From contig NC_014212.1 in the NCBI RefSeq assembly GCF_000092125.1, positions 1,384,001 through 1,448,000 on the forward strand: 64,000 nucleotides of DNA. Reading direction: 5' to 3'. The notes below the pieces were generated by a model, which saw only the letters and a list, made by a program, of their open reading frames with translations, had not been told where the DNA came from and ran no database searches. The translations under genes were made by a program, and so were the position numbers. The stretch comes from Allomeiothermus silvanus DSM 9946 (lineage in GTDB: Bacteria; Deinococcota; Deinococci; Deinococcales; Thermaceae). Below are positions 97 through 52,889 of this stretch, in pieces; within the stretch, counting starts at the first letter, position 1, and each line of letters begins with the position of its first letter.

Positions 97-1470
97 ATGC
101 TCCGCCCCCTGGCCGTTATTGCAAAACTACGCCTCAGCCTCCGCGCCCGCCTCTTCCTTTGGCTGCTGATTGCCTTGAGCCTGCTCTTGGTGCCGCTGGG
201 GGTGCTCACCGTGCGCGAAGCTCAGCGGGCCGCACAAGCTGGGCTCGAGCGGGCGGCTTTGTCGGGCTTGGGAGTCTTGGTGGCCGAGAATGCTGGGGTG
301 CGTGAACTGTTCTCGCTAGTGCAGCGCTTTGGCGGAGGGGTGGGCTATGTGGTGTGGCTTCCGGGGAGGCGGGGTGCTCCTGATCGGCTCGAGCCCCGCA
401 TAAGCTGGACAGACCGGGGGGAATACCGACTTCCCGAGGGCCTAATCGAAGCGCTCGCCGAGGGGCAAAGCTACCGCCGGTTGGTGGGAGATACGTTGTG
501 GCTGGCCCTGCCCACGGAGGCCGGAGGAATAGGCCTGGGTGTACGCGTTTCCGAGGTAGCGGCTTTACCCTCGAAACTCTTCCAGCTTTATACCGGCTTG
601 GGGGTGGGGCTACTGGTCTTGGCTTGGTCGGTAGGGGCCTGGGGGCTTTCCCGCTCGCTGCGGCCGACCCTGGAGATGTCGGAGGAACTCTCCCGGCGCA
701 ACCCGGATTTCCTCGAGCCCCTGAGCGAGCCCCGGCTGGCGGAGTTGCGCCCGGCGGTGCTTTCGCTCAACCGCTTGATGGACGAGCTTTCGCGGGCTTT
801 TGCTCGGCTCAAAGCGCAAGAGGAATCGGCCAAGCGTTTTGCCTACGGAGCTTCGCACGAACTGCGTAACCCCCTGGCCGCGCTCAAGGGATATCTGGAG
901 GTGCTGGCCCGCCGCCCTGGTGAACTGCGGGCTATCGAGGGAGCATTACGTGAGGCACGGCGGATGGAGAGCCTGCTCGAGGGCTTGCTCACCTTGGCTC
1001 GGCTCGAGGGGCGGGGGCGGGTGGAGGGAACGCCCCAGGACTTGGCCGCTTTCCTAAAGGAGCGCTATGTCCCCGAACGCTTGTCTGAAGTGATCGGCGA
1101 GGCTCAGGTGCAGGCCGAACCTGCTTTGCTCACGCTGGCCGTGGAGAATCTGCTCAAGAATGCGCACAAGCACGGAGGGGGTAGGGTGCGCGCTCGCCTC
1201 GAGCGTGACGGCCCTGGTTTTTGGCTGTGGGTAGAAGATCAAGGGCCGGGGTTCGCGGCGGAGATCTTGCCCCGCGCCTTCGAACCCTTTATCAAATTCG
1301 GGGACGGCACCGGGTTGGGGCTAGCCATCGTAGCCGCGGTAGCTCGAGTTCACGGGGGGCGGGCGGCTGCCCAGAACCTCGCCGAGGGTGGAGCCAGGGT
1401 CGGAATTTGGCTGATAGGAGCCAAGGTGGAGGCGTCTTTTCGCGGCGATAGCCGGGAGGCGGACGGCTAA
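97..1470 (+). CDS. Two-component sensor histidine kinase
   Basis: Membrane sensor kinase of 457 aa. Membrane segments lie at about residues 17-38 and 164-186, flanking a ~125-residue extracytoplasmic sensor region. A HisKA helix carries the phospho-acceptor His254 in ASHELRNPL. The ATPase domain has an N box (VENLLKNAHKHG, ~349-360), G1 (DQGPGF, 381-386) and G2 (GTGLGLAIV, 404-412). No response regulator follows; the partner probably lies upstream of the window. The last ~15 residues (ASFRGDSREADG) are not kinase sequence: they are the translation of an interspersed repeat at the 3' end of the gene, which probably replaced the native C-terminus. The ligand is unknown. Confidence 0.93.
   Translation: MLRPLAVIAKLRLSLRARLFLWLLIALSLLLVPLGVLTVREAQRAAQAGLERAALSGLGVLVAENAGVRELFSLVQRFGGGVGYVVWLPGRRGAPDRLEPRISWTDRGEYRLPEGLIEALAEGQSYRRLVGDTLWLALPTEAGGIGLGVRVSEVAALPSKLFQLYTGLGVGLLVLAWSVGAWGLSRSLRPTLEMSEELSRRNPDFLEPLSEPRLAELRPAVLSLNRLMDELSRAFARLKAQEESAKRFAYGASHELRNPLAALKGYLEVLARRPGELRAIEGALREARRMESLLEGLLTLARLEGRGRVEGTPQDLAAFLKERYVPERLSEVIGEAQVQAEPALLTLAVENLLKNAHKHGGGRVRARLERDGPGFWLWVEDQGPGFAAEILPRAFEPFIKFGDGTGLGLAIVAAVARVHGGRAAAQNLAEGGARVGIWLIGAKVEASFRGDSREADG
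1437..1456 (+). repeat. Interspersed repeat A, copy 1 (inside kinase 3' end)
   Basis: Core TTTTCGCGGCGATAGCCGGG, preceded by GGCGTC and followed by AGG as in copies 2 and 3. It is read in frame as S-F-R-G-D-S-R at the C-terminus of the histidine kinase. The core contains a small hairpin, CGGC-GATA-GCCG. Confidence 0.9.
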
Positions 1471-9472: not shown

Positions 9473-9742
9473 ATGCTCAGACCATTGCTGCACAAGGTGC
9501 AAGAGGTCGAGTGGCCGGAAGCCCACATCGGGGGTCTGACTGCCGTGGCGTCTTTTCGCGGCGACAGCCGGGAGGAAGCTGAGCAGAAGCTCGATTTCCT
9601 GCTGGGTCAGGAGGGCCGTAGGCAGCTCGAGCAGACCCTGGACCGGCTCGAGCGCGGGGTGCTGGTGGCCTTTATGGGGATCGGGATCGCCTCGGTAATC
9701 CTGCTGGTCTACCTGTTTTCGGCCTTCCATTTACTCGGCTAA
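9473..9742 (+). CDS. Small membrane protein carrying an in-frame repeat
   Basis: Protein of 89 aa. An amphipathic N-terminal half (LDFLLGQEGRRQLEQTLDRLE) precedes one C-terminal transmembrane helix (~63-85, VLVAFMGIGIASVILLVYLF). Residues ~25-33 (VASFRGDSR) are encoded by interspersed repeat A, inserted without breaking the frame. A GAGG lies ~10 nt before the ATG, and a clear terminator follows 21 bp after the stop, supporting a real monocistronic gene. The function is unknown. Confidence 0.65.
   Translation: MLRPLLHKVQEVEWPEAHIGGLTAVASFRGDSREEAEQKLDFLLGQEGRRQLEQTLDRLERGVLVAFMGIGIASVILLVYLFSAFHLLG
9553..9572 (+). repeat. Interspersed repeat A, copy 2 (in coding sequence)
   Basis: Core TTTTCGCGGCGACAGCCGGG, one base from copy 1, preceded by GTGGCGTC. 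It is read in frame as S-F-R-G-D-S-R inside the 89-aa membrane protein. Confidence 0.9.
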
Positions 9743-9795: not shown

Positions 9796-9853
9796 AGGGC
9801 GGTTTGCCGATTTGATTAAGGTGGCTATGGGGGGTAGGTAAAGCCGTGGCGTC

Positions 9854-9873
9854 CTTTCGCGGCGATAGCCGGG
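9854..9873 (+). repeat. Interspersed repeat A, copy 3 (intergenic)
   Basis: Core CTTTCGCGGCGATAGCCGGG with the same GTGGCGTC lead-in as copy 2, only 301 bp away. It lies between the terminator and the convergent OsmC gene. Confidence 0.88.
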
Positions 9874-9944
9874 TGGAGATTCCGCCAAGACTGTTTGGCT
9901 GCTGCCCGATACCCTACGTCGGACATAGTTTGTGTACCGCAGAT

Positions 9945-15268: not shown

Positions 15269-15417
15269 GGGTCAAACTGGCGCTCGAGCTGGCTCAATAC
15301 TTGCCACCACAGCAGTTCCCGCCAGGCCCAAATTATTCCCTGGGTGAGGCCCAACCCCCCCAGCGCGAGCAGCCCCCAGAGGTGTATTTTCGCGGCGACA
15401 GCCGGGTGGATGAACGC
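15265..15417 (-). pseudogene. Possible remnant of a small membrane-protein gene
   Basis: An open minus-strand stretch without a start codon reads IHLWGLLALGGLGLTQGI and IWAWRELLWWQVLSQLERQF up to a TGA. This is a plausible membrane helix followed by an amphipathic tail. Its upstream part is repeat A copy 4 (read as HPAVAAKI) and then a stop, as if the repeat had landed in, or replaced, the 5' end of a small gene. It could also be a chance frame. Confidence 0.25.
15387..15406 (+). repeat. Interspersed repeat A, copy 4
   Basis: Core TTTTCGCGGCGACAGCCGGG, identical to copy 2, with a GGTGTA lead-in shared with copy 6. It lies just upstream of the amidase promoter. Confidence 0.88.
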
Positions 15418-18744: not shown

Positions 18745-21700
18745 ATGCGTTTGTGGTGGGCGTTATGGCTGGCCATAGGTTGGGGGTTGGGGGTTGCTGC
18801 GGCGGCCCCGGTGACTTTCAGGTACACCCCCCCGCAGGGAACCGAGGTGCGTACCGTCAGCCTGCGCGGGCAGATGAACAACTGGGGCGAAACCCCTATG
18901 CGCCTTGAGAACGGGGTCTGGACCGTGACCGTGGAGGTGCCACCGGGGCGGGTGCAGTACAAGTTCTTCATCAACGGGCAGTGGCCGCGCGATATGTGTG
19001 CTGGAGGCAACCTGGCCGGGCCAGATGGCAAGATTGACCCCGAGGCTGAGGGTTGCGTGGACGACGGTAACGGTGGGAAGAACGCCTTCCGCACCGTGAG
19101 TGGTCAGGCTGCCCAGACCCCCCCGATAGCGCCCCGGGCCGACGCCAAACCCGCCCCCCCGCTAGAGGCCAGTAAAGCCCGCATCCACTACTTCCGCCCG
19201 GACGGCAACTATGCGGGTTGGGGCTTGCATTTGTGGGAGGACACCCTCGAGCAGGTGGAGTGGAGCAAACCCTTCCCGCCCACCGGCCAGGACGACTACG
19301 GTCTGTACTGGGACTTCCGCCTCAAAGAGGGGGCCAAGAAAGTCGGGTTTATCGTCCATAAGGGCGATGAGAAAGACCCCGGCCCGGATATGTTCCTCCT
19401 GCTCGACCAGCACGGGCGCGAGGTCTGGGTGCTCTCGGGTAGCACCCGGATCTACACCCAGCGCCCGGATACCTCGGCCATCCCCACCGGTGACCTGTCC
19501 AAGGCCCAGGCCCATTGGTTGACCCGCGATACCGTAGCGTGGAACCCCACGGGTTTCACCCAGGGAGCCACGGTGCGGCTCTTCTACAGCCCCTCGGCCC
19601 GCCTCAACCTGACCCGCGACGGGATCACCGGGGGGTTCCCCATCACCCTCGAGCCCGCCACGCTCTCCGAGGCGCTCAAGGCCAAATATCCTCACCTGCG
19701 CGAGTTGCGGGCTTTCAAGTTACCGGCGGACGAACTCGAAAAGGTTCCCGGCATCCTCAAGGGGCAGTTCGCGGTGGCGGCTTTCGGCGCCGATGGCAAG
19801 CTCCTCGATGCCACTTCCCTGCAAATCCCCGGTGTGCTCGACGACCTCTTTTTCTACGATGGCCCGCTCGGGGTAACCTTCGCCAACGACGTCCCCACCC
19901 TGCGCCTGTGGGCGCCTACGGCCCGCTCGGTCAAGCTGTTGCTCTTCGATTCATCCACAGCGCAAAGCCCCAGTCAGACGCTCGAGATGACCGAGGAGAA
20001 AGGGGTCTGGAGCCTCGCTGGGCGGCCCAATTGGAAAAACAAATTCTACCTCTACGAGGTTCAGGTCTTCGTACGGAGCACCGGGAAGATCGAGACCAAC
20101 CAGGTTACCGACCCCTACTCGCTCTCGCTTTCGCTGAACTCCAAGCGCAGCCAGATCGTAAACCTGAACGACCCGGCCCTCAAACCCCAGGGCTGGGATG
20201 CCTTACGCAAGCCCCCCTTGGACGCCTTCGAGGACATAGTGCTCTACGAACTTCACGTGCGGGACTTCAGTGCCTCGGATCCCAGTGTCCCTGCCGACCT
20301 GCGCGGGACCTTCAAGGCTTTCACCTTGCGGAACTCGAACGGCATGAAGCATCTGTCGAGGCTGGCCCAGGCTGGGCTAACCCACATTCACCTGCTTCCT
20401 ACCTTCGATATCGCCACCATCAACGAGGACAAGTCCACCTGGAAAACCACCCCCGACCTCTCCCAGCTTCCTCCCGACTCGGAGGAGCAGCAGGCGGCGG
20501 TGGCTGCCATTCGCGGTCAGGACGGCTTCAACTGGGGCTACGACCCCTATCACTTCAACGTGCCGGAGGGTAGCTACTCCACCAAACCTGACGGTCCGTC
20601 GCGCATCGCGGAGTTCCGCGAGATGGTGCAGAGCCTCAACGATATTGGCTTGCGGGTGGTGATCGACGTGGTCTACAACCACACCCACGCGGCGGGCCAA
20701 GACGAGAAGTCGGTCTTCGACCGGATTGTGCCCGGCTACTACCATCGCCTCAACAAAGATGGCAACCTCGAGACCTCCACCTGCTGCGCCAACACCGCCA
20801 GCGAGCACCGGATGATGGAGAAGTTCATGGTGGACTCGGTAGTGCTGTGGGCCAAGGCCTACAAGGTGGACGGCTTCCGCTTCGACCTGATGGGCCACCA
20901 CATGAAGGCCAATATGGAGCAGGTGCGCAGGGCGCTGGATGGCCTGACGCTGGAGAAGGACGGCGTGGACGGCAAGAAGATCTACGTCTATGGTGAGGGC
21001 TGGAACTTCGGCGAGGTCGCCAACAACGCCCGGGGGGTGAACGCCACCCAAATCAATTTGGCCGGAACCGGCCTCGGCACCTTCAACGACCGCATCCGCG
21101 ACGCTATCCGCGGTGGGAACCCCTTCGGCGACCTGCGCGAGCAGGGCTTCGCTACCGGTCTTTTCAGCGATCCCAGCAACTTCACCAACAAACAAGGAAA
21201 CGCTGAAGCCCAGCGCAACCGGCTACTCATGCTTACCGACTGGCTCAAAACTGGGCTGGCGGGGGGTCTCAAGAACTACAAGTTCACTGACCGCAGCGGC
21301 AATCAAGTAAGCGGTGAACAGGTCAAGTACGGTGACGCCCCGGCAGGCTATACTTTGGACCCTCAGGAGACCATCAACTATACCTCCGCCCATGACAACG
21401 AAACGATCTGGGACGCGGTGCAGGCCAAGGCCTCGGAGAAGGACAATCTCGCCGACCGGGTGCGGATCAATAACCTGGCCCTGAGCCTGGTGATGCTCTC
21501 TCAGGGTGTGCCTTTCTTCCACGCCGGTGATGACCTCCTGCGCTCGAAGTCCCTCGACCGCGACAGCTACGACTCGGGGGATTGGTTCAACCGAATCGAC
21601 TGGACTTACCAGACCAACAACTGGGGGGTAGGCTTGCCCCTGGCCGATAAAAACCGCGACAACTGGCCCTGGATTAAACCCCTCTTGGCCAACCCCGCCC

Positions 21701-22098
21701 TCAAGGCCAGCCCCGCCGACATCCAGTTCGCCACCCGCTACTTTCAGGAGTTGCTGCGCCTGCGCAAAAGCAGCCCCCTATTCCGCCTGCGCACCGGTGA
21801 GGACGTGCAGAACCGCCTCGTCTTCCTCGATACCCGCAATCAGCCGGGGGTGGTGGCGATGCTCCTAGAGGATCGGCGCCAGGGCCTCGCCGACCTGGAT
21901 CCCAAGTATCAGCGCATCCTGGTGGTCTTCAACGCTGCCCCGCAGGCTCTTCGGCTTACTGCCAACCTGCCCGGCAACTGGCAGCTTCACCCCCTCCAGC
22001 GGGACTCGGTGGACGCGATCACCAAGCAGGCGGCTTTCTCCGGTGGGGTCTTTAGCGTTCCGGGCCGTACTACCGCCGTCTTCGTGCTGCCCCAGTAG
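18745..22098 (+). CDS. pulA: Secreted type I pullulanase (GH13)
   Basis: Exported 1117-aa debranching enzyme that cleaves alpha-1,6 bonds in pullulan and starch. After a signal peptide (~1-21) come a starch-binding module (~22-120, PPQGTEVRTVSLRGQMNNW), a CBM41/PUD module (~145-250, ARIHYFRPDGNYAGWGLHLW), a CBM48-like domain (~375-470) and the GH13 barrel. Catalytic residues are Asp714 (GFRFDLMGHH), Glu751 (YGEGWN) and Asp884 (TSAHDNE). The pullulanase signature GYDPYHFNVPEGSYS (~594) is present. ATG 18745 is preferred to the GTG at 18727 because the signal peptide then begins directly after GAGGAGG. An amylase gene follows 92 bp downstream. Confidence 0.95.
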   Translation: MRLWWALWLAIGWGLGVAAAAPVTFRYTPPQGTEVRTVSLRGQMNNWGETPMRLENGVWTVTVEVPPGRVQYKFFINGQWPRDMCAGGNLAGPDGKIDPEAEGCVDDGNGGKNAFRTVSGQAAQTPPIAPRADAKPAPPLEASKARIHYFRPDGNYAGWGLHLWEDTLEQVEWSKPFPPTGQDDYGLYWDFRLKEGAKKVGFIVHKGDEKDPGPDMFLLLDQHGREVWVLSGSTRIYTQRPDTSAIPTGDLSKAQAHWLTRDTVAWNPTGFTQGATVRLFYSPSARLNLTRDGITGGFPITLEPATLSEALKAKYPHLRELRAFKLPADELEKVPGILKGQFAVAAFGADGKLLDATSLQIPGVLDDLFFYDGPLGVTFANDVPTLRLWAPTARSVKLLLFDSSTAQSPSQTLEMTEEKGVWSLAGRPNWKNKFYLYEVQVFVRSTGKIETNQVTDPYSLSLSLNSKRSQIVNLNDPALKPQGWDALRKPPLDAFEDIVLYELHVRDFSASDPSVPADLRGTFKAFTLRNSNGMKHLSRLAQAGLTHIHLLPTFDIATINEDKSTWKTTPDLSQLPPDSEEQQAAVAAIRGQDGFNWGYDPYHFNVPEGSYSTKPDGPSRIAEFREMVQSLNDIGLRVVIDVVYNHTHAAGQDEKSVFDRIVPGYYHRLNKDGNLETSTCCANTASEHRMMEKFMVDSVVLWAKAYKVDGFRFDLMGHHMKANMEQVRRALDGLTLEKDGVDGKKIYVYGEGWNFGEVANNARGVNATQINLAGTGLGTFNDRIRDAIRGGNPFGDLREQGFATGLFSDPSNFTNKQGNAEAQRNRLLMLTDWLKTGLAGGLKNYKFTDRSGNQVSGEQVKYGDAPAGYTLDPQETINYTSAHDNETIWDAVQAKASEKDNLADRVRINNLALSLVMLSQGVPFFHAGDDLLRSKSLDRDSYDSGDWFNRIDWTYQTNNWGVGLPLADKNRDNWPWIKPLLANPALKASPADIQFATRYFQELLRLRKSSPLFRLRTGEDVQNRLVFLDTRNQPGVVAMLLEDRRQGLADLDPKYQRILVVFNAAPQALRLTANLPGNWQLHPLQRDSVDAITKQAAFSGGVFSVPGRTTAVFVLPQ

Positions 22099-22190: not shown

Positions 22191-24302
22191 ATGCGATTGC
22201 TGATGTTGTTGTGGATAGCGATGGGATTAGCCCTGGCGGTGCCTGTCGCCTTTACTTACGCCCCACCCCAGGGCCACCCGGCTATCGCCGCGAAAAGAGG
22301 CCTCGAGGTCCGCTCGGTCTCCTTGAGGGGCAGCTTCCACAACCAGGAAGAAGCCCCCGTGAAGCCCGGGAGTGGGGTCGGGAAGATCGTGCTCGAGCTT
22401 GCCGGGGGGACATACACCTACAAGGGGGGGTGGCCCAATGACAGGGGCACGAGCGGCGAACCCGACCCTCAGGCCAGTAACCCCCCGCCCACCGGCCCGA
22501 TTCCGGTCGTCGGCCCCACCCGGCCCCAACCCAGCGGCGACCTCAACTTCGAGCACGACCCCAAGCTGCCCAAATTCGTCTCGCTGGCGGCGGATGGGCT
22601 CTCGGTGCGCTTTCAGGCCGGGGAGGGCTCGGTGAAGTGGGCCATCGTCCAGGCCGAGGGCAGGAACTACCCCATGCACCGGCAGCTCTGGCAGGACGGC
22701 AGCGAGATCTGGAGGGTAGCGCTTCCCCCCAACATAAAGAACTACCGCATCCGCCTCGAGACCGCCCAGAATAAGCCCGCCGTGTTCGGCCCTTTTGACG
22801 CGAATCATCCGTTGGTGGGCCTGGACTGGGTAGGGAAGAGCATCGGCTACCAGGTCTTCCCCGAGCGCTTCTGGAATGGGGACAAAACCAACGACATGCG
22901 GGCGCTCGAGACCGACGAGTACCGCTTCAACGAGACCTGGAACCAGAATCCCCAGGCGACTAAGCCCTACCTATCGAACTGGAACGACCCACCCGGTGAG
23001 CTGCACTGCTGCCACCAGTATTTCGGTGGCGACCTAGCCGGGTTCCTGGAGAAGCTCCCCCACCTCGAGGCTTTGGGGGTCGGGCTCGTCTACTTCAACC
23101 CGCTCTTCGACTCCGGCTCCGCCCACGGCTACGACACCCACGACTACTACAAAATCTCTCCCAAATTCGGCGACGAGGCTCTTCTACGGCAGGTGCTGGA
23201 CGCAGCCCACGCCCAGGGGATGCGGGTGATCTTCGACTTCGTACCCAACCACACCGGCCTGGGCTTCTTCGCCTTCCAGGACGTGGTGAAAAACGGGCGG
23301 GCCTCCCAGTACTGGAACTGGTACACGATTAGGCGATGGCCGTTCCGTCCCGGCGACGCCTCGGCCTACGACACCTTCTCGGGGGTGGGGAGCTTACCCA
23401 AGCTCAACACCGCCAACCCCGAGGTAAAAAAGTATCTGCTCGAGGTGGCCGAGCACTGGATGCGCTTCGGCTTCGACGGTTTGCGCGTCGACTACCCACA
23501 GGGCATCGTGAACCGCGAGGATTTCTACCGCGACCTGCGCCGGGTGGTGAAGGGGGTTAAACCCGATGCCTACATCGTGGCCGAGATCTGGGTGCGGGAC
23601 CCCAGCTGGCTGCAAGGCGACCAGGCCGATAGCCTGATGAACTACGCCATCGGGCGGGACATCGTGCTGCGCTTCGCCCGGGGCGGTGGGGTGGCTTTGT
23701 ACAGTGGTCGGCGGGCCTTGACCGATCTGGCCCGCATCTACGCCGATTATCCCGAGGCGGTGGTGGGCCAGGGGTGGAACCTCATTGGCTCACACGATAC
23801 TCCCAGGGTGCTCACCGATTTGGGTGGGGGCGCCCTAGGCGATACCCCGTCGCCCGAGTCGCTGGCCCGACTGCGCCTGGCAATGGGCTTGCTCTACGCC
23901 CTCCCCGGAATGCCGATCTTCTTCCAGGGGGATGAATGCGGTTTCACCGGGGAGGCCGGGCAGTACCCGGTCAATGAGCTATACCGCTACCCACTCCAGT
24001 GGGACCGGTGCAACCCCGACGTGCTGGAGTTTTACCAGCGACTCGGCAAGGTTCGGGCTGGCCTAGCCGCTCTGCAAGGCCCGGCGTTCCGGGCCTACGC
24101 GGGTGAGGGGGCGGTGTTGGCTTTTCTGCGGGGCGAGCCAGGTCAGGAGGTGGTGTTGGCGGCTTTCAACAAGGGCAGCGAACCAGCCAACCTGGCCCTT
24201 CCCGGCGGCACCTGGCGCGATGCCCTTAGCGGCCAGACCTTCCAAAGCCAAGCAGAACTCCCGGCGATTGGTTTTCGCTATCTCGTACGGGCGGTGCCGT
24301 AG
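22191..24302 (+). CDS. Secreted GH13 alpha-amylase / neopullulanase-like enzyme
   Basis: Exported glycosidase of 703 aa with a signal peptide (~1-18). A shortened copy of the pullulanase N-terminal module, a Pro-rich linker, an N-domain (~115-205) and a GH13 barrel follow. Catalytic Asp434 (LRVDYPQ), Glu465 (VAEIW) and Asp536 (GSHDT) are intact, with VIFDFVPNHTG as region I. Domain order resembles neopullulanase or cyclomaltodextrinase, but those are usually cytosolic. Relative to the pullulanase motif PPQG-EVRTVSLRG it carries nine to ten extra residues, HPAIAAKRGL, encoded by repeat A. ATG 22191 follows GGAGGGATC. The exact substrate cannot be assigned. Confidence 0.9.
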   Translation: MRLLMLLWIAMGLALAVPVAFTYAPPQGHPAIAAKRGLEVRSVSLRGSFHNQEEAPVKPGSGVGKIVLELAGGTYTYKGGWPNDRGTSGEPDPQASNPPPTGPIPVVGPTRPQPSGDLNFEHDPKLPKFVSLAADGLSVRFQAGEGSVKWAIVQAEGRNYPMHRQLWQDGSEIWRVALPPNIKNYRIRLETAQNKPAVFGPFDANHPLVGLDWVGKSIGYQVFPERFWNGDKTNDMRALETDEYRFNETWNQNPQATKPYLSNWNDPPGELHCCHQYFGGDLAGFLEKLPHLEALGVGLVYFNPLFDSGSAHGYDTHDYYKISPKFGDEALLRQVLDAAHAQGMRVIFDFVPNHTGLGFFAFQDVVKNGRASQYWNWYTIRRWPFRPGDASAYDTFSGVGSLPKLNTANPEVKKYLLEVAEHWMRFGFDGLRVDYPQGIVNREDFYRDLRRVVKGVKPDAYIVAEIWVRDPSWLQGDQADSLMNYAIGRDIVLRFARGGGVALYSGRRALTDLARIYADYPEAVVGQGWNLIGSHDTPRVLTDLGGGALGDTPSPESLARLRLAMGLLYALPGMPIFFQGDECGFTGEAGQYPVNELYRYPLQWDRCNPDVLEFYQRLGKVRAGLAALQGPAFRAYAGEGAVLAFLRGEPGQEVVLAAFNKGSEPANLALPGGTWRDALSGQTFQSQAELPAIGFRYLVRAVP
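22277..22296 (-). repeat. Interspersed repeat A, copy 5 (inverted, in frame in the amylase)
   Basis: On the minus strand the core is TTTTCGCGGCGATAGCCGGG, identical to copy 1. On the coding strand it reads P-A-I-A-A-K-R. It sits exactly where the amylase has extra residues relative to the pullulanase module. Confidence 0.92.
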
Positions 24303-26138: not shown

Positions 26139-26200
26139 GGATTCAAAAAGACAGCCTCTGGAGTTTTTACCTTTGCAAACTGTCTTTTTGAATCCGGTAT
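26139..26200 (-). repeat. MITE-like palindromic element C, copy 1
   Basis: Sixteen-bp perfect terminal inverted repeats GGATTCAAAAAGACAG / CTGTCTTTTTGAATCC around a 25-nt centre. On the minus strand it begins TACCGGATTCAAAAAG, like copy 2 at 30907. A weaker match to the outer end, AATACCAGATTC, lies at 26072-26083, so a larger element of ~130 bp including the 14-bp inverted repeat is possible. The stem with its T-run could also end transcription from either side. Confidence 0.8.
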
Positions 26201-30906: not shown

Positions 30907-30963
30907 TAATACCGGATTCAAAAAGACAGTTTACAAAACCCCAGAGGCTGTCTTTTTGAATCC
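30907..30963 (+). repeat. MITE-like palindromic element C, copy 2
   Basis: TAATACC followed by the same 16-bp terminal repeats (30914-30929 and 30948-30963) around an 18-nt centre. The centre matches the complement of copy 1 apart from a short gap. It lies 49 bp after the ftsE stop and could serve as its terminator. Confidence 0.85.
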
Positions 30964-50493: not shown

Positions 50494-50538
50494 TAAGGAC
50501 CCCATTTACTCTTTTGGGGGCCCCCGACCGCGGTGTAT

Positions 50539-50557
50539 GTTTGCGGCGATAGCCGGG
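50539..50557 (+). repeat. Interspersed repeat A, copy 6 (one base changed)
   Basis: GTTTGCGGCGATAGCCGGG, preceded by GGTGTAT as in copy 4. It lies in the repeat-filled gap between sdhB and the dynamin-like gene. Confidence 0.8.
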
Positions 50558-50622
50558 TAGCGAGTCCAGGGAAGCATACCCAGCAGAGGGGCTTTAGCTT
50601 GCCCTTAGCGGAACGCTACCCC

Positions 50623-50700
50623 TGAGTACCGGCGCCAGCCGGGGGCCGATGGCCCTTCACTTGAGTACCGGCGCCAGCCGGGGGCCGATGGCCCTTCACT
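50623..50700 (+). repeat. 39-bp repeat B, two perfect tandem copies
   Basis: Two identical 39-nt units (50623-50661 and 50662-50700), each beginning TGAGTACCGGCGCCAGCCGG and ending GGCCCTTCACT. Internal palindromes (GGCGCC and GGGGGCC/GGCCC) suggest a hairpin. A diverged copy lies at 15233-15268. In both places repeat A is within ~150 bp. Confidence 0.92.
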
Positions 50701-52511: not shown

Positions 52512-52565
52512 GTCATCCAGGGATCATGAAAATTATCCCACTCCACCCGGAAAGGAGGTGACTTC

Positions 52566-52889
52566 ATGGCTGAGAAAAAGACTGCGGCCAAGAAACCTGC
52601 TGCCAAGCCTGCTGCTAAGGCCCCGGCAAAGGCTACGGCTAAGCCTGCGGCGAAGAAGGCTCCGGCTAAGGCTGCTGCGAAACCTGCCGCCAAAGCTCCG
52701 GCTAAAGCGACGGCCAAGCCCGCGGCAAAACCCGCTGCCAAAGCGGCTGCTAAGCCCGCTGCCAAGACGGCTGCGGCCAAGCCCGCGGCGAAGAAGGCTC
52801 CGGCTAAGGCTGCTGCGAAACCTGCTGCTAAATCTGCCGCCAAACCCGCCGCGAAGAAGACCACCACCAAGAAAGAGACTGCCAAGTAG
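52566..52889 (+). CDS. Histone H1-like Lys/Ala/Pro-rich protein
   Basis: Protein of 107 aa made almost entirely of Ala, Lys and Pro in imperfect AAKPAAK and APAKA repeats, with an acidic pair near the start (MAEKKTAAKK) and KKTTTKKETAK at the end. Such tails resemble the C-terminus of histone H1 and bacterial AlgP/HctB-type nucleoid proteins and should be disordered and DNA-binding. The Shine-Dalgarno sequence AGGAGGTGA is near perfect, so expression is probably high. Codon-level repetition (GCTGCTAAG/GCGGCCAAG) suggests growth by slippage. Confidence 0.85.
   Translation: MAEKKTAAKKPAAKPAAKAPAKATAKPAAKKAPAKAAAKPAAKAPAKATAKPAAKPAAKAAAKPAAKTAAAKPAAKKAPAKAAAKPAAKSAAKPAAKKTTTKKETAK

Follow-up and report, generated by a model that had tools for sequence, protein, structure and literature searches.

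Nine additional residues in a secreted amylase

The amylase gene of the Allomeiothermus silvanus window analysed here (the whole 64,000-nt stretch of DNA) raises the question of how nine residues that related enzymes lack came to lie in its N-terminal part. The gene (22191..24302, plus strand) was identified by its ORF, its translation and a domain search as that of a secreted GH13 amylase/pullulanase type II of 703 aa, whose best solved relative is 5ot1, Pullulanase type II. A signal peptide is followed by a short degenerate N-terminal module and an intact GH13 domain; VIFDFVPNHTG, DGLRVDYP, VAEIW and IGSHDTPR are all found in the translation, so that the catalytic domain looks intact. Alignment of the N-module, which reads VPVAFTYAPPQG-HPAIAAKRG-LEVRSVSLRGSFHNQEE, revealed that HPAIAAKRG (nine residues, 27 nt) is extra in the window amylase and absent from all 12 readable Thermaceae orthologues, in which the matching stretch is PPxGLEV(R/H/Q)SVSLRGSFNxW (PPSWLEV in one). 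Raw N-termini of further amylase orthologues, some of them from outside the family, lack it as well. Because the 12 orthologues go without the nine residues at this place, the insert amounts to exactly 27 nt.

The original prediction had deduced an inserted copy of a repeat, repeat A, from a comparison with the neighbouring pullulanase, and the peptides it quoted are indeed present (pullulanase, ...YTPPQGTEVRTVSLRG, ORF from 18745; amylase, ...YAPPQG-HPAIAAKRG-LEVRSVSLRG, ORF from 22191). Its reading of the amylase stretch as an insertion was borne out by the absence from orthologues and by an exact 18-nt core, and the residues were not shared by repeat-less close orthologues (0 of 12 readable family members). 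It had also allowed for ten residues and up to 30 nt, of which the lower figure of 27 nt agrees with the measured nine residues: the leucine was wrongly counted as inserted because the pullulanase has T there, while the orthologues share L (PPSGLEV, PPYGLEV).

The 27-nt unit, CCTCTTTTCGCGGCGATAGCCGGGTGG, occupies 22274..22300 on the minus strand, as judged from the exact core and the 27-nt gain over all readable orthologues, and its plus-strand reading gives HPAIAAKRG (codons 22275-22301). With GGCC on both sides, the junction can be placed to within about 4 nt. A single GAGG tetranucleotide (CCTC on the plus strand), the putative target, lies 5' of the unit on the minus strand at 22301..22304, where orthologues read G-LEV, and the far end of the unit, opposite GAGG, is GTGG.

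The N-terminal module is eroded in Allomeiothermus

The neighbouring pullulanase (18745..22098, plus strand) carries an N-terminal module (PF16561, aa 35-81) that is paralogous to the amylase N-module and free of the repeat. Pfam still matches PF16561 in the pullulanase module, but no longer in that of the amylase (window 22191-22540), which, set against its orthologues, no longer has the SFNxW tryptophan or the greater part of QYKFFINGQWP. In the sister species of the same genus, the entire N-module of the amylase is missing. Erosion here together with deletion in the sister species indicates weak constraint on the module, which is decaying in this genus. The proposed before/after pair of pullulanase and amylase did not hold, since the pullulanase is a paralogue and the true empty alleles are orthologous amylases; as the same-genus relative lacks the whole module, the proper 'before' allele is found in the other Thermaceae amylases. 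Tolerance of change close to the signal peptide had been suggested as well, and the decaying module agrees with this. An exported N-terminal module is, however, not needed for accepting the repeat, which also lies inside the conserved cytosolic enzymes TrpG, Hera and GlnRS, so that tolerance concerns loops and tails generally.

Repeat A is a dispersed 27-nt family

Repeat A, 27 nt long, is found at about fifty places in the A. silvanus genome. A search of 3,721,669 bases (3.72 Mb; three contigs, the first of 3,249,394 bp) for the 18-nt core TTCGCGGCGAYAGCCGGG returned 18 exact copies, 51 at up to one mismatch and 70 at up to two mismatches, and none for the reversed-pattern control, so that the repeat greatly exceeds what chance would give. 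The sister species has 11 copies at up to one mismatch and 16 at up to two, and 48 further Thermaceae hold 0-1 copies each (up to one mismatch). On these counts, the family seems largely confined to Allomeiothermus. A scan of a viral collection gave no exact match to repeat A, and the exact 25-nt pattern had no match in a genome collection from which the genome of the window itself and its closest kin may be missing, so that this result weighs little. The consensus, CGTnnTTTCGCGGCGAYAGCCGGG(T/A)GG, has five open frames out of six. Tandem arrays are direct with a period of 27, which is also the insert size. A single unit folds modestly better than shuffles (z = -1.5) into a short hairpin, and a look for compensatory changes in it yielded a single clear double change (L106).

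Within the window, the amylase insert is an inverted match to other copies (inverted pairs I1, I3, I5, I10 and I14). Plus-strand units lie at the 3' end of a histidine kinase gene (1433..1459; product ending in AKVEASFRGDSREADG and stop), whose tail differs in the sister species; in a stretch of ~580 bp missing from the sister species (9549..9575); in an intergenic region (9850..9876), absent from the matching place in the sister species with a junction that is not clean; and in another intergenic region at a synteny break relative to the sister species (15383..15409). A type B relative (50528..50693, plus strand) is a longer mosaic between genes that holds an A-like core as well as two direct repeats of 39 bp (50616-50693), and the amylase unit resembles it at about 50528-50567.

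Several copies sit at gene ends, as in the histidine kinase tail in the window and the tail of an NAD-dependent DNA ligase-like gene. In the latter, a 28-nt version of the repeat occurs in tandem in both species (L078 and L069), and the stop codon seems to come from the 28-nt unit. Intergenic copies at L031:2722, L076:1522-1593 and L192:1500 stop shortly before a start codon (GGGTGGATG, GGGAGGAAACGGTG), and their G(T/A)GG terminus may replace the ribosome-binding site there.

Empty and filled sites differ by whole units

Comparison of A. silvanus (G000) with its sister species (G001) and other relatives, with one genome per species and gene contexts supported by homology for part of the copies, revealed exact 27-nt steps against empty relatives at six sites: amylase, trpG, Hera, GlnRS, a glycosyltransferase and a small ORF. 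The trpG gene has no unit in G006 and G015 (two other genera), one in the sister species and three in A. silvanus, always in whole 27-nt steps. Nine residues were gained between LE and ASRQRGR in the RNA helicase Hera (empty in G001 and G015), and likewise nine in glutaminyl-tRNA synthetase (GlnRS; empty in G001 and G006), in a family 2 glycosyltransferase (empty in G001) and in the small ORF of L092, where both Allomeiothermus species are filled and G006 is empty. The identities of the host proteins are backed by Pfam, and the solved structures 6qur (a TrpG relative) and 4kbf (Thermus Hera) lack the residues at the matching places. Sites with no clean empty allele were not counted; these are L042 (with another tail in the sister species), L052, L088, L096, L100, L105 and L106, as well as the window copies at 9549, 9850 and 15383. 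At the site compared between L041 and L111, the sister species retains a partial unit from which 12 nt near the hairpin are gone in frame, with almost identical flanks.

A relative of 30 nt, GGCGTnnTTTCGCCGAGCGnAGCGAGGGGT, was found by a gapped pattern and forms tandems of period 30; most copies are in Allomeiothermus, with few in other Thermaceae. Two proteins are longer by exactly ten residues through this repeat: a histidine kinase, whose site is empty in G001 and G006, and an acetyltransferase (GNAT protein) in the sister species, whose site is empty in G006 and G015. Inverted 30-nt copies also bound a stretch of ~6.6-7 kb (G000:C1 about 136547-143285; G004:C18 6801-13662; G023:C173 7145-14005) that is shared with two genomes of another genus in the family (G004 and G023) and may be a mobile island.

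The extra residues as a probable mobile repeat inserted in frame

We consider it highly probable that the extra residues of the amylase are one copy of a 27-nt non-autonomous mobile repeat inserted in frame 3' of GAGG. The unit would have entered 3' of GAGG on the minus strand of the gene, adding nine residues to the N-terminal module and leaving the catalytic domain intact; the reading frame would have survived thanks to the 27-nt length of the unit and a consensus with five of its six frames open. Mobilisation would have occurred in trans by an enzyme, and tandem arrays may have arisen through reinsertion or slippage.

Spread without a dedicated enzyme, by template switching at microhomologies or by taking up short DNA fragments, with later expansion by slippage, is the alternative that survives best, although we regard it as unlikely. 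Thermaceae are naturally competent, which favours this route, as do the GG microhomology at both ends and the tandem arrays, but random-length template switching would not predict a uniform unit length and uniform ends at unlinked sites, nor the fixed 30-nt unit of the sister family.

Insertion of a mobile unit by an enzyme could also have followed the classical course, with a 4-nt duplication of GAGG whose right-hand copy later mutated to GTGG. Of 32 single-copy sites, 16 have GAGG and eight GTGG to the left of the unit, and 17 have GTGG and six GAGG to its right. Equal tetramers at both ends, in line with a duplication, were found at L031, L041, L042 and trpG of the sister species (GAGG) and at L088 (GAGA). 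Across the 32 sites, however, left and right tetramers were not associated (Fisher p = 0.60, small sample), and within arrays the internal units likewise end in GTGG. Amylase and Hera have GAGG on the left and GTGG on the right, GlnRS has GAGT and GTGG, and the relatives of Hera and GlnRS read GAGG or GAAG where the right end is now GTGG. With the GAGG/GTGG pair of ends in the amylase as well, this makes it most likely that the tetramer on the right is part of the unit. The tetramer is single at amylase, Hera and GlnRS, and the target duplication suspected in the original prediction is accordingly not supported; we give the duplicating course a rather poor chance. These three junctions instead fit insertion 3' of an unduplicated tetranucleotide.

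IS200/IS605 elements insert 3' of a tetranucleotide without duplicating it. As this habit matches the junctions, the enzyme behind a mobile repeat A could plausibly be a single-strand transposase of the IS200/IS605 or RAYT type. Matches to Y1-transposase elements number five in A. silvanus and one in the sister species, and the resident IS200/IS605 elements were dismissed as drivers, since their ends and flanks differ and no repeat adjoins them. No mobilising gene was found: the repeat lies beside none of the 15 Y1_Tnp loci examined.

Retention of the insertions for a function of the peptide or of the DNA site, for instance as a protein-binding site or an adjustable loop, appears very improbable. 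Genic copies are mostly in sense orientation, the sense ones nearly always in one frame, and the number of units varies at trpG, as such a function might have it; the frame bias, however, follows from the common GAG codon together with removal of stop-containing frames, the hosts are unrelated, and the sites lie in loops, tails or linkers. On the favoured reading, the added peptide would be tolerated rather than useful. An ancestral origin of the nine residues, with loss from the other amylases, can practically be dismissed: they are missing from every readable orthologue, and the DNA that encodes them matches almost perfectly a repeat whose copies are concentrated in a single genus. No supporting evidence was found.

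GAGG is common both as a glutamate codon (GAG-G) and as a ribosome-binding site, so that units inserting next to it could spread through genes with little damage. We tentatively raise the possibility, doubtful as it is, that Allomeiothermus harbours a family of frame-sized units, their lengths of 27 and 30 nt both being divisible by three, which enter 3' of GAGG and spread in this manner, perhaps among the smallest such mobile units and perhaps through an undescribed single-strand enzyme.

Relation to known small repeats

Rickettsia palindromic elements (RPE) are dispersed short repeats found between genes as well as in frame within conserved but unrelated protein genes (PMC3767692, PMC2229807). 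Repeat A shares with them its in-frame place in unrelated protein genes with empty orthologues, whereas RPE are about 84-146 bp long with long stem-loops; here, units of 27 or 30 nt with a weak hairpin form direct tandem arrays in another phylum. REP sequences are units of 20-40 bp tagged by a tetranucleotide that occur inside genes in several species, and for CGTC-tagged REPs the transposase is not known (PMC3733652, PMC3116915). Small size, a tetranucleotide tag and some copies inside genes are common to both, but REPs are imperfect palindromes with a GTAG tag, while repeat A has G(A/T)GG and the modest fold of its single unit. REPs and REPINs are often head-to-head pairs, in contrast to the direct repeats of period 27, 28 or 30 seen here, and GTAG REPs frequently have a RAYT gene as their neighbour; no such gene was found here. 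A word search of the REP survey gave no mention by name of Meiothermus, Thermus or Deinococcus.

The cyanobacterial SDR5 is a very small repeat inserted precisely at a fixed short target, between nucleotides 3 and 4 of HIP1 (PMC4390886). Repeat A is similarly tiny and may likewise favour a short target: relatives read GAGG at the corresponding position of Hera, GlnRS (G006) and trpG, and GAGG lies to the left of the amylase unit, with other sites varying. Both sequence and target are different from those of SDR5. Intragenic in-frame fusions are also known for MITEs (PMC2229807), which are likewise non-autonomous; repeat A is much shorter, lacks terminal inverted repeats and has no clear target duplication. 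The likeness to IS200/IS605 lies in the junctions at amylase, Hera and GlnRS, not in the ends of the resident elements. The repeat A family thus works like RPE, REP and SDR5, yet fails the defining features that were tested, namely size and stem-loop for RPE, and tag, head-to-head pairing and RAYT for REP.

No description of the family was found in the open-licence PubMed Central literature searched, and the text of the M. silvanus genome paper found under 'repeat' mentions CRISPR repeats alone (PMC3035272). Well-studied proteins (TrpG, Hera, GlnRS, amylase) of a culturable thermophile here provide clean before/after pairs with a gain of exactly nine or ten residues, which make it directly testable how tiny repeats move and whether proteins merely tolerate them.

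Other repeats in the window

Two 29-nt inverted pairs (97% complementary) containing AAAAAGACAG lie about 4.7 kb apart at 26139-26200 and 30909-30963 and are perhaps the ends of another small element. At 52556-52868, the window holds tandem repeats of lysine/alanine/proline type, histone H1-like in appearance.
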